From Sphingosinicella sp. CPCC 101087 (GTDB taxonomy: Bacteria; Pseudomonadota; Alphaproteobacteria; Sphingomonadales; Sphingomonadaceae), in NCBI RefSeq assembly GCF_004151485.1, contig NZ_SBFF01000005.1, positions 157,001-221,000 on the forward strand: a stretch of DNA of 64,000 nucleotides, in the 5' to 3' direction. The position numbers and the translations under genes are program-made. The notes beneath the pieces are model-generated. The model was given only the letters and a program-made list of their open reading frames with translations, did no database searches and was not told the DNA's origin. Shown in pieces: positions 16,445 through 27,336 of this stretch (the stretch's first letter is position 1; every line of letters starts with the position of its first letter).

Positions 16445-17446
16445 ATGCCCGTCGATGCCTGCCAGGCGCTTTTATGTTGGTATGCTGTGGATAAGCGGTC
16501 GCTGCCATGGCGGGCCGGGCCCGGAAAGGCGCCGGATCCCTATCGGGTCTGGCTGTCCGAAGTCATGCTGCAGCAGACGACGATCGCGCATGCGCGGCCC
16601 TATTTCGAGACGTTCGTCCACCGGTGGCCGACGGTCGAGGCGCTTGCCGCGGAGTCCGACGGGGAGGTCATGGCCGCCTGGGCGGGGCTCGGCTATTACG
16701 CCCGGGCGCGCAACCTGCTCGCCTGCGCGCGAATAGTGGCGGATCAGCTTGGGGGGCGCTTTCCCGAAGACGAAGCGGCGTTGAGGCGCCTTCCCGGTAT
16801 CGGCGCCTATACCGCCGCGGCGGTAGCGGCGATCGCCTTCGGCCGCCGTGCGGTGGCGGTGGACGCCAATGTCGAGCGGGTGGTCGCGCGCCTGTTCGCG
16901 GTCGAGGCGCCGCTCCCCTCCGCCCGCGCCGCAATCAGGGACCATGCCGAGCGGCTGACGCCGGAGGAAAATGCGGGCGACTTCGTCCAGGCGATGATGG
17001 AGCTCGGCCAGACCGTCTGCATGCCGCGCCGCCCCGATTGCGGACGCTGCCCGCTCACGCCCCATTGCGCCGGATACGCGGCCGGCGACCCGGGCGCCTT
17101 TCCGGTGAAGGCGCCGAAAGCCGCGCGGCCGCGCCGCGAGGGCGTCGCTTACTGGCTGGAGCATAGGGGCCGCGTGCTTCTGGTCCGGCGTCCACAGAAA
17201 GGCCTGCTCGGCGGCATGCTGGCGCTGCCGACCGACGGCGCTCCGGCCGAGGCGGCATGGCGCGAGGCGGGGGCGGTCGACCATGTCTTCACCCATTTCG
17301 CCTTGACCATGCGGCTGCTCTGCGCGGAGACCGACACGCCCGCGGAAGGGATATGGTGGCCGGTAGAGCGGATCGGCGAGGCCGGCCTGCCGACCTTGTT
17401 CGCCAAGCTGGCCGTGCGCGGCAGCGAGTGGAGGCGCGCCGCATGA
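16445..17446 (+). CDS. mutY: A/G-specific adenine DNA glycosylase MutY
   Basis: Removes adenine mispaired with 8-oxoguanine in base-excision repair. 333 residues. Catalytic Glu lies in LSEVMLQQTT (about residue 39), the helix-hairpin-helix is LPGIGAYTAAAV (about 118-129) followed by VDANVERV with the catalytic Asp, and the 4Fe-4S ligands are C-x6-C-x2-C-x5-C in CMPRRPDCGRCPLTPHC. The C-terminal NUDIX-like 8-oxoG reader (RREGVAYWLEHRGRVLLVRR) is present but short. A perfect DnaA box sequence (TGTGGATAA, 16486-16494) lies in the codons for AVDK. The end overlaps nudC by four bases (ATGA). Confidence 0.97.
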   Translation: MPVDACQALLCWYAVDKRSLPWRAGPGKAPDPYRVWLSEVMLQQTTIAHARPYFETFVHRWPTVEALAAESDGEVMAAWAGLGYYARARNLLACARIVADQLGGRFPEDEAALRRLPGIGAYTAAAVAAIAFGRRAVAVDANVERVVARLFAVEAPLPSARAAIRDHAERLTPEENAGDFVQAMMELGQTVCMPRRPDCGRCPLTPHCAGYAAGDPGAFPVKAPKAARPRREGVAYWLEHRGRVLLVRRPQKGLLGGMLALPTDGAPAEAAWREAGAVDHVFTHFALTMRLLCAETDTPAEGIWWPVERIGEAGLPTLFAKLAVRGSEWRRAA

Positions 17447-22534: not shown

Positions 22535-22541
22535 TGTTCAA

Positions 22542-22590
22542 CTCTCCTCGCAGAGAGCACGCGCCGCGTTGGGACGGCGTGGCCCGCTGG
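22542..22590 (-). ncRNA. serC leader RNA motif (cis-regulatory, covering the serC ribosome site)
   Basis: Read on the minus strand, the 50 bases before serC fold as two hairpins: CACGCCG ... CGGCGCGTG (22581-22558) and CTCTC-TGCGAG-GAGAG (22557-22542). The second stem contains the GAGGAGAG ribosome site, so it can hide it. This is the layout described for the serC leader motif of alphaproteobacteria, found upstream of serC-serA operons with its last stem over the ribosome site. The ligand or signal of that motif is not known to me. The match is by structure and position, not by a covariance search. Confidence 0.7.
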
Positions 22591-25326: not shown

Positions 25327-25497
25327 GCCGCCAAGAACCTCCGCAGACGCGCGGCCGCGACGGCCGAGCCATGAGATGAATGGCGCCCCTTTATGCGGGC
25401 ATCGTCCGTGCCGCAAGCGGGGCTTCCCGAGAGCGGTGCGATCCGGTGACATGGGGCAAGGGCCGGGACACGGTCCGACTTATGCCCGTAATCCTCG

Positions 25498-25506
25498 TTA
25501 TCCACA
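25498..25506 (+). promoter_or_regulatory. perfect DnaA box sequence
   Basis: TTATCCACA matches the DnaA consensus exactly. It lies in the gene-free gap between the cytochrome c gene and the structured RNA candidate. A single nine-base match can occur by chance in a window this size. Confidence 0.3.
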
Positions 25507-25534
25507 GTCAGAATCCCCTTGGTGCGACTCGGTT

Positions 25535-26257
25535 TTCATGAGAGCCTTCAATCCGTGGCCGAGACGATCGACCGGCAACGGTCGAAAGCCTTCCCAGCCA
25601 CAGCCGGAGCCACGAAGCCCTCTTGTCCCACCAGGCGATGAGGGTGGGTGAGCAAAGGCAGGGCGGCTGACGAAGCCGCCGCCAGGCGGAAGCTGCGGGC
25701 TTGCCCTTTAGCGGAAGCGAAGGTGGCAGGCATCGTCAAGCACCCAGGTTCGGAACCTTCGGGTTCCGTGCCGAACAGGCAGGATCCGGGCTTCGCCCGA
25801 CCTGTCCGGCAGAAGCGGGACGAAAGTCGGCGCACTGCCACCGGCGGAATCAGGGCCCCGGCTCTGTGACGGTCGGGCAGGACCGGGCTTCGGCCCGGGA
25901 GCTGCGAAACGGCAGACCCAGGATGCAAGTCCTTGGACTGTCGGGCAGACCCAGGCCTCGGCCAGGGAGCCTGTCGTTGACGGCCTACGCTTCGGCGGAG
26001 GCTCGAGACGACAGGGTGCCGGAACCCCGGTTCCGGATCTGCCGACGGCGAACCGTCAGGGCTGGCCCTGGCGGGGAACCAGCGGGGAAACCCGAAGGAG
26101 CGTAAGCTCCCGAAGGACTCCGGAGGACGGTCCCGAGCCCCCGGCTCAGGCTCGGCCCTCGAAGAAGCCCAAAGCGGACTGCCTCGCCTCCCAGGCTTGG
26201 TGACCACCGCGAAGGGACAGTGGGGGCTGGCGGCAACGCCAGCCCCCATTTCTTTCT
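25535..26257 (+). ncRNA. candidate large structured RNA (about 700 nt), family not recognised
   Basis: No credible protein gene lies here, yet the plus strand is almost a continuous series of strong hairpins: CGACCG-GCAA-CGGTCG (25569), CCCACC/GGTGGG (25627), GGCGGC/GCCGCC (25662), GGAACC-TTCG-GGTTCC (25752), CCGGGC-TTCG-GCCCGG (25883), GCCTACGC-TTCG-GCGGAGGC (25983), CCGGAACC/GGTTCCGG (26019), GACGG-CGAA-CCGTC (26044), GGAGC-GTAA-GCTCC (26097), CCGAGCC/GGCTCGG (26133), and a terminator at the end. Stable UUCG and GNRA loops recur, and four stem-loops share a GGCAG-A-CC ... GG-A-CTG frame (from 25789, 25877, 25911, 25946). The 5' end is a guess: I saw no clear promoter. RNase P, tmRNA, SRP and 6S signatures are absent. 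Alternatively it is a long leader of the gene at 26370. Confidence 0.65.
26221..26257 (+). terminator. strong intrinsic terminator of the structured RNA
   Basis: A perfect 12-bp stem TGGGGGCTGGCG / CGCCAGCCCCCA closed by a GCAA tetraloop and followed by TTTCTTTCT. The direction of the T-tract sets transcription on the plus strand. Confidence 0.85.
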
Positions 26258-26369
26258 GCTCTCCGCACATGCGGCCTTGTTGCGTCGCCGCCTGGCCCGC
26301 GTTGCGCCAGGCGGCAGGAACGGCGCGCCGTCGCCGGCGTTGGCTTGTGAAAACCAACGGAGATGCGAA

Positions 26370-26744
26370 ATGGCGGACGGCAGGAAGGCCGCGACAGGTG
26401 GCACGGCGGGCACCGGCGCCCCTGACACCAACCCCGAGAGCGGCGGCGGCAGGACTGGGGAAGCCGCCGAAGGGGAGCGGCCGGAAGACAAGTCGACGCT
26501 CGCCGGCGGCGATGATTCGGCCGAGGCGGCGATCGGCCGGAACCCCGAAGGGAAACCGGCCGGCGCCGGCAGCTCGGCGGAGCGGAGCGGCCGTCGCACC
26601 AGCGAAGGCAAGGGGGCACTCGATTCGCCGCCGGATCCTGGCGACCCCGGGGGAATGGGGGGCGTGCGCGCGCACGCCCGCGCCATCGACGGTCGACCGC
26701 CGGGCGGAGTCAGCCCGATGGCCGAGCCGGGCGAGGAGGAATAG
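26370..26744 (+). CDS. small disordered Gly/Pro/charged protein, function unknown
   Basis: 124 residues, not recognised. No hydrophobic core: the sequence is rich in Gly, Glu, Arg, Pro and Ala (MADGRKAATGGTAGTGAPDT ... GGVSPMAEPGEEE) and likely disordered. Start ATG has GGAGA seven bases upstream. The 5' untranslated stretch contains a perfect 10-base inverted repeat GCCGCCTGGC/GCCAGGCGGC (26287-26315), and the upstream structured RNA ends 110 bases before the start. It may be a real gene controlled by that leader, or a chance frame in GC-rich DNA; the ribosome site favours a gene. Confidence 0.45.
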   Translation: MADGRKAATGGTAGTGAPDTNPESGGGRTGEAAEGERPEDKSTLAGGDDSAEAAIGRNPEGKPAGAGSSAERSGRRTSEGKGALDSPPDPGDPGGMGGVRAHARAIDGRPPGGVSPMAEPGEEE

Positions 26745-26853
26745 GCTTCGAACTTCGGTCCCGGCCGCAGACCGTGAAGTTACGGTCCCTCCTGCGCTTG
26801 ATCTCGTAATATCCACGCGCGATAGTCGGGGCGGGGCGAGGGAGGCGCCGTCT

Positions 26854-27336
26854 ATGTTCTCACGCAGCAAGCCGGCCAAGCCGGCAATGAGGCCGGCCAA
26901 GTCGGGGCCGCCGGGCCTGTCGTTCATCGGCTCCGAGGTGGTGATTAGCGGGGATCTCGCGACCACCGCGCAGGTGCATGTCGATGGGCGGGTCGATGGG
27001 TCGGTGCATTGCGCGCAGCTTTGCCAGGGCGCGACCGGCATCGTGGCCGGCGACATCGTCGCCGACGAAGCGCGGATCGCCGGGCTGGTCGAAGGGACGG
27101 TGAACGGCAAGACCGTCGTGCTCGAGGCCAGCGCCCGCATTACCGGGGATATCAGCTACGAGACGATCAGCATTGCCGCGGGAGCCCGTATCGACGGACG
27201 GCTGGCCCGGCGCGAGGCTTTGGCGGCGGGCGAAATGCTGATCGCGGCACCGGCGACCAACGGCAAGGGCGGGACTGACGGGGATGGGAGCGAATTGTTC
27301 TCGCGTCAGGATCCGCCGCGCATAGCCGCCGCTTGA
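26854..27336 (+). CDS. bactofilin family polymer-forming protein
   Basis: 160 residues. The central DUF583 bactofilin domain is a run of short beta-helix repeats: GSEVVISGDLATTAQVHVDG, VDGSVHCAQLCQGATGIVAG, IVADEARIAGLVEGTVNG, VLEASARITGDISYETISI and AAGARIDGRLARRE. Short unstructured ends (Pro/Lys-rich N-terminus SKPAKPAMRPAKSGPPG) are typical. Bactofilins form cytoskeletal filaments that place cell-wall or stalk machinery. Start ATG has GGGAGG eight bases upstream. Often next to an M23 peptidase gene, which is not seen here. Confidence 0.9.
   Translation: MFSRSKPAKPAMRPAKSGPPGLSFIGSEVVISGDLATTAQVHVDGRVDGSVHCAQLCQGATGIVAGDIVADEARIAGLVEGTVNGKTVVLEASARITGDISYETISIAAGARIDGRLARREALAAGEMLIAAPATNGKGGTDGDGSELFSRQDPPRIAAA

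Follow-up and report, generated by a model that had tools for sequence, protein, structure and literature searches.

The window analyzed here is a 64,000-nucleotide stretch of DNA from Sphingosinicella sp. CPCC 101087, and positions 25480–26250 on its plus strand hold a promoter, a structured RNA of about 700 nt and a terminator, in that order. The initial annotation had the element begin at 25535, which proved too late because a conserved promoter lies upstream, from 25480. This promoter opens with three contiguous DnaA-box-like 9-mers, TTATGCCCG, TAATCCTCG and TTATCCACA (25480–25506, plus strand), which are kept in 40 aligned promoters and are predicted to bind DnaA; the third matches the DnaA box consensus. 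Behind the array come a first GANTC site (GAATC, 25511–25515), a −35-like TTGGTG on the plus strand (25519–25524), placed by its sequence and by promoter alignment, and, directly behind the −35, a second GANTC site (GACTC, 25526–25530) that matches the reverse of the GcrA motif YGAKTCK. Neither GANTC site is assigned a strand. The putative plus-strand −10 (25542–25547) is a weak match placed by spacing only, and a scan with the sigma-70 consensus returned no promoter in the region.

The whole RNA is taken to span 25550–26250 on the plus strand, with an estimated 5′ end and with the terminator as its 3′ end; all the parts that follow lie on this strand. It begins with a hairpin in which a GTGGC/GCCAC outer helix surrounds a GCAA-loop stem (25555–25601, consensus helices 1 and 2) and continues with a subfamily core domain of 30 consensus pairs (25651–25749), captured in a model called R2. 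Four hairpin modules follow. Module 1 (25778–25806) has the form GGCAG...CTGTC and is backed by consensus helices with double changes; module 2 (25877–25905), which has a UUCG loop, module 3 (25911–25942) and module 4 (25944–25975) are each backed by the consensus structure, by a tandem fold and by a sequence repeat, D1, described below. Downstream, a conserved hairpin domain, GGCGAACC...GGGGAACC (26045–26082, helices 23 and 24), is mostly invariant and has 95–100% of its alignment cells paired. The stem of a GTAA-loop hairpin (26097–26110, helix 27) is rewritten among homologues, with 5 of its 5 pairs changed on both sides and 76.5% of cells paired. The RNA closes with an intrinsic terminator, AGTG...CATT with a GCAA loop (26219–26250, helix 33), whose 12-nt arms (26221–26232 and 26237–26248) are as initially described. 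As a separate observation, two alternative pairings are available to GGGCGGCTGACGAAGCCGCC in window 25661–25749, a local hairpin or a helix with the core domain's 3′ side, which may make it a switch.

The initial annotation had also proposed that this DNA is more ordered, and richer in hairpins, than chance would give, and the measurements agree. Against 20 shuffles for each strand, 25535–26257 folds with a z-score of −8.1 on the plus and −4.85 on the minus strand. When 345-nt tiles of both strands of the window were scanned (370 tiles, 16 shuffles each, in a frame anchored on the RNA start), the plus-strand halves of the RNA ranked 1st (z −5.05) and 5th (−3.56), and their minus strands ranked 7th and 15th. 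Counting only stems of at least 4 pairs beside the loop, 14 tetraloop hairpins precede the terminator, compared with 8.3 in 200 shuffles; GNRA loops account for 3 (0.47 in the shuffles) and UUCG loops for 2 (0.04). All of the loops named at first reading were found in place (UUCG at 25758, 25889 and 25991, GCAA at 25575 and GTAA at 26102), and since only two UUCG hairpins were counted, one of the three named UUCG loops fails the stem rule. The recurring GGCAG...CUG(U)C frame was seen again in 25875–25975, which folds as three tandem hairpins (z −2.97).

Covariation among relatives, which had been suggested as a check on the structure, is present. An alignment of seven close homologues over the full transcript length (A2) has 183 consensus pairs, 44 of them changed on both sides with pairing kept, as against 20.2 ± 3.0 in shuffles (0 of 500 as high) and 8–18 such pairs when partners were slid; 91.6% of its cells are paired, compared with 31–48% when slid. 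The RNAalifold covariation term was slightly unfavourable for A2 (+1.37) and was −3.09 for A3, an alignment of copies of a second sequence class (class 2, see below) from seven genomes, in which a raw count gives 43 of 98 pairs with double changes. Because the A2 structure derives from the same alignment, the window's own centroid, made without the alignment, was tested as well: 79.2% of its cells pair in the other six rows versus 33–47% when slid by 1–2 columns, and 43 pairs are changed on both sides versus 27–31 when slid. The centroids of the six other homologues had 70.8–77.7% of cells paired. A protein-coding gene was rejected because no reading frame is kept among the homologues: 129 of the 158 gaps inside A2 have lengths not divisible by 3 and frames differ between rows, in keeping with the original remark that the stretch holds no credible gene. 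A 530-aa open frame on the minus strand (window 25548–27140) spans the RNA and is not in register across homologues; long frames are common in this GC-rich DNA.

At first reading, the element could have been either a stand-alone RNA or the leader of a gene at 26370. The terminator ends 120 nt before that ORF (26370–26744), which encodes 124 aa of low complexity, has no Pfam match and has, among the fetched loci, one weak relative, in one other genome (G005). No flank protein is common to more than 5 of the 47 loci compared; in the fetched loci of the genus, 8 genomes have a cytochrome c gene upstream and 11 have a bactofilin gene downstream (by eye, in 1.5-kb flanks). With its own terminator, a barely conserved downstream ORF and loci that differ by genus, the element is best read as a stand-alone RNA, and the leader alternative fails.

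The distribution of the RNA was followed at several depths. A DNA search with 25480–26260 gave matches in 25 of 26 same-genus genomes (its own included), several of them limited to a short piece of one end; of 34 genomes outside the genus, none matched. A sequence-only promoter model, R1, made from 40 of 45 promoters (L007, L013, L027, L034 and L068 were left out), at E≤0.001 found matches in 69 of the 298 Sphingomonadaceae genomes, spread over 23 of the 96 genera, with some matches consisting of boxes only. The other 229 had no match at this threshold, so either the family is patchy or the model is insensitive. Across the order, 54 of 296 genomes matched at E≤1e-5, all 54 within the window's family, and across the class 2 of 289 did so, namely the window's own genome and one partial match; these strict filters lose weak matches, yet some weak matches are boxes only. 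A search of named genomes for the promoter pattern gave 25 stretches, 19 of them titled Sphingomonas, Sphingosinicella, Sphingomonadaceae or Sphingomonadales and 4 from MAGs named no more closely than Alphaproteobacteria; two, in an Acetobacteraceae MAG (L080) and a Prosthecobacter MAG (L083), had nothing recognisable downstream. Among the 64 fetched loci that R1 found outside the genus, taken without preselection for CGACTC, CGANTC lies 25–70 nt after the array start in 53 (29 of 600 random window places), and a terminator passing a strict rule is present in 40 (15 of 600). Three loci that this rule failed (L172, L173 and L178) have both promoter and terminator.

For comparison across the family, 77 promoters were hand-picked among the fetched loci after a preselection for CGACTC that allowed up to 2 mismatches. 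Left out were near-duplicates (L117, L121, L132, L141, L142, L149, L151, L154, L156, L164, L171 and others), genus copies (L002, L005, L013 and L043) and loci that failed the array rule or had boxes only (L128, L134, L169, L172–L174 and L177–L182). A later check found true promoters in L128, L134, L172, L173 and L178, so the selection rule missed members. A delimited transcript, 285–1333 nt long, follows 73 of the 77 promoters; by rule L122, L133, L162 and L168 have no terminator, and a separate inspection found one in L133. The counts over these 73 transcripts are not independent, since members within a genus are related. On the plus strand they contain 111 UUCG hairpins versus about 2 in shuffles (~50-fold) and 138 GNRA hairpins versus 17–20 (~7-fold), compared with 8 (shuffled 3.6) and 9 (shuffled 10) on the minus strand. 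This excess on one strand only sets the strand of the RNA. In 39 of the 73 transcripts the RNA begins with a GNRA hairpin enclosed by an outer helix, as against 3.2 ± 1.6 and at most 7 in 100 shuffle rounds. At the other end, the same terminator form was found downstream in 35 of 36 genus copies (lengths 301–1338 nt), which were themselves found partly via terminator similarity, and it also occurs in many other genera. These terminators share the AGTG...CATT flanks, and their stem changes are compensatory (CTGGC/GCCAG, CCGGC/GCCGG, CTGGT/ACCAG, GGCGGCC/GGCCGCC and others). The constant ends of the family are thus a DnaA-box-like array, a GANTC between −35 and −10, a 5′ GNRA hairpin and the AGTG...CATT terminator. 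A second family copy is present in the window's genome (L046, G000:C23, about 285168–285690, minus strand); it has the same form of promoter and terminator as the window RNA and belongs to a different sequence class, class 2, of which six relatives likewise carry a copy. Tandem copies occur in one other genus (L140, L183, L137 and L175, in G215, G261 and G298), with promoters ~440–480 nt apart.

Between the constant ends the middle varies, and the longest members contain duplicated hairpin modules. The two-unit repeat of the window, D1, is 61 nt long (25842–25902 and 25910–25970, 70% identity). Elsewhere, a 24-nt core recurs 11 times in L033, with CTTCGG in 9 of the copies and 6 of the 10 steps measuring 38–40 nt; 174-nt units occur three times in L031 and 34-nt units five times in L032, and L037 has three units of 70 nt set 82–86 nt apart. 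Two L033 modules folded together paired with each other and not as separate UUCG hairpins (z −0.70), so the array need not consist of separate hairpins in every species. The 99-nt core (25651–25749) is confined to part of the genus: when the R2 model was used to look for a family-wide core in the window and the 64 loci, only L033 and L034 matched clearly apart from the seven genomes of the seed. The RNA has fixed ends, its own promoter and a changing middle in which capped hairpins are kept, and this suggests that the number and shape of the hairpins matter more than any one sequence.

Comparison with known RNAs points to a family not described before. The window RNA has no match in Rfam 15 at gathering score, which agrees with the earlier exclusion of RNase P, tmRNA, SRP and 6S. 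Over the window and the loci of 40 relatives, the only matches at gathering score were tRNA and the serC leader, both outside the RNA, and at E≤10 the best match (McaS) reached 23.5 bits against a gathering score of 42. The serC leader (RF00517, 44.6 bits, window 22537–22589, minus strand) lies before an ORF and is ordinary. To our knowledge, no other RNA has constant ends around a duplicating hairpin array or a promoter combining DnaA boxes with GANTC. We found no published description in the open-licence literature searched. On the comparative evidence, we consider it very highly probable that a stand-alone structured RNA some 700 nt long is encoded here, and that it belongs to a Sphingomonadaceae family, apparently undescribed, in which the ends are constant and the middle is modular. 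It would be a new family within a known kind, the large structured bacterial RNAs. The kinship with OLE, ROOL and GOLLD that had been proposed holds for size and ornate structure and does not extend to an Rfam match. Those RNAs (Rfam; PMC12286853) are large, highly structured and noncoding, with a function that is little known or unknown; the RNA described here differs from them in its promoter type, its constant ends, its duplicating hairpin array and its nearly five-fold length range.

The promoter motifs suggest how the RNA may be controlled. Within the genus, 29 of 31 promoters carry TTATCCACA without mismatch, as do 6 of 6 found by pattern and 28 of 40 from other genera, a likeness in sequence to DnaA-controlled promoters, which have DnaA boxes at the promoter. 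A GANTC lies between −35 and −10 in 31 of 31, 6 of 6 and 39 of 40, respectively, and the reversed GcrA motif form occurs at GANTC site 2 in 30, 6 and 37, both in a set preselected for CGACTC. GANTC site 1 is present in 22 of 31, 6 of 6 and only 4 of 40, and is not a family feature. Its distance from the third box is ~3 nt in 24 of the 40 aligned promoters and ~13 nt in the other 16, one helix turn apart. In Caulobacter, a GANTC lying between −10 and −35 marks promoters that are activated at one time in the cell cycle (PMC4287350), and GcrA activates at YGAKTCK (PMC7987155). The promoters described here resemble these GcrA/CcrM-dependent promoters in the GANTC between −35 and −10, which reads as YGAKTCK on the other strand (PMC7987155, PMC4287350); they differ in the phased DnaA-box array alongside, set one helix turn nearer or farther according to class, and in driving a noncoding RNA. 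We consider it likely that DnaA, through boxes phased at 9 bp, and CcrM/GcrA, through GANTC, control the promoter, such that the RNA level would follow chromosome replication and methylation state. The only other exact TTATCCACAG in the window is on the minus strand at 16485–16494, and the 500 bases around it showed no CGANTC promoter.

We propose a mechanism in three steps. The first is the stand-alone, ~700-nt structured RNA itself, with constant ends and a modular middle. In the second, a dedicated promoter would set its timing by replication and methylation, through DnaA at the boxes and CcrM/GcrA at GANTC. In the third, the RNA would act in trans, its many similar stable-loop hairpins serving as a multivalent platform for several copies of a protein, either as a sponge or as a scaffold. 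Taken loosely together, the RNA, its replication-linked control and multivalent protein binding make an account whose chances we put slightly above even. The platform by itself is more tentative, and we would place it somewhat below even; it is proposed from module duplication and fast sequence turnover, and the tandem modules of L031, L032, L033, L037 and the window speak for multivalence. Counting against the account are the weak −10, the third exact box in only 28 of 40 other-genus promoters and a subfamily core that is not common to most members. CsrB and RsmZ are sponge RNAs of a comparable build, fast-evolving arrays of similar hairpins that titrate CsrA. The protein they titrate is absent here: a search for CsrA (PF02599) found it in 0 of 60 genomes, with a control search positive in 3 of 14 well-known genomes, and a CsrA sponge was rejected because CsrA/RsmA is not encoded in the genomes searched.

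The evidence suggests that a multivalent protein-binding RNA fits best and a base-pairing RNA second. In the latter case, which we regard as unlikely though worth serious attention, the hairpins would be stabilizing spacers in a trans-acting RNA, and short stretches such as GGCAGGGYG and GACGCCTGAGC would pair with target mRNAs. GGCAGGGYG (at most 1 mismatch, nt 60–200) is found in 25 of 73 members compared with 8.2 after shuffling, often near nt 110, and GACGCCTG is found in 16 members; yet most members lack the conserved stretches, and length and module number vary far beyond what a pairing RNA would need. A precedent is CcnA of Caulobacter crescentus, an alphaproteobacterial noncoding RNA linked to replication and cell-cycle regulators that is reported to act on ctrA and gcrA (PMC8959179). 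CcnA is 182 nt long and lies within the origin next to hemE (PMC8959179), whereas the sphingomonad RNA is 285–1333 nt long and lies away from hemE. A self-assembling cage or complex like OLE, ROOL or GOLLD seems improbable: the size, the many capped stems and the modular build would suit it, but the Rfam comparison gave no match to those families and so wide a length range is hard to reconcile with one fixed assembly.

The resemblance of the promoter to the presumed chromosome origin bears on a further alternative. In Sphingomonadaceae oriC is placed upstream of hemE (PMC4741004). Upstream of hemE, L191 has TTATCCCCG-TGATCCACA in the same 9-bp phase as the RNA promoters; L190 has one such box by rule, and L189 and L192 have none (degenerate forms by eye). 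R1 matches L169 and L174 (G297 and G080) immediately ahead of a gene with a relative that adjoins hemE in 4 of 4 genomes tested, so the RNA promoters resemble the presumed origin, and because the promoter model matches there in two genomes our confidence in replication-linked control rose slightly. The distance between the RNA gene itself and hemE was computed for 18 genomes, with two lengths rounded and G155 excluded because the place there has boxes only; it is at least 102 kb in all 18, and in G191 it is ~84 kb if that contig is circular. In most of the 18 the gene lies in the origin-proximal half of the arm, although related genomes among them are not independent. To find the origin, GC skew was also sampled at 20 places in G008, where the signal was too weak to be of use. 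An origin RNA of the CcnA type beside hemE was rejected on these distances. It is very doubtful that the locus is chiefly a DNA element, a box array that titrates DnaA or acts as a secondary origin with the RNA mattering little: the array is like the boxes near hemE, and some model matches have boxes without RNA (L177 and L179–L182), but covariation and strand-specific loops indicate selection on the RNA itself, and each site has few boxes. That the RNA is a long leader, either for the gene at 26370 or for bactofilin at 26854, is scarcely tenable despite the recurrence of bactofilin in the genus, since the terminator comes first, the ORF at 26370 has so little conservation, neighbors differ in other genera and class 2 copies lie elsewhere in the same genomes.

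The large structured RNAs known from bacteria are few, and most have no assigned function. The sphingomonad RNA occurs in many genera and has clear gene ends, and its promoter motifs point to a testable circuit of DnaA, CcrM and GcrA; its nearly five-fold length range and the differences in module number among species offer natural variants for a binding-partner search. A hairpin array that duplicates between fixed ends is unusual in a structured RNA. It is possible, although we hold this only as a speculation, that the family as a whole is a replication-timed RNA, switched on by DnaA and CcrM/GcrA in step with the replication cycle, whose valence is tuned by module duplication and which captures or scaffolds a cell-cycle protein. 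If so, the cell-cycle circuit of alphaproteobacteria would have a post-transcriptional arm not yet described.
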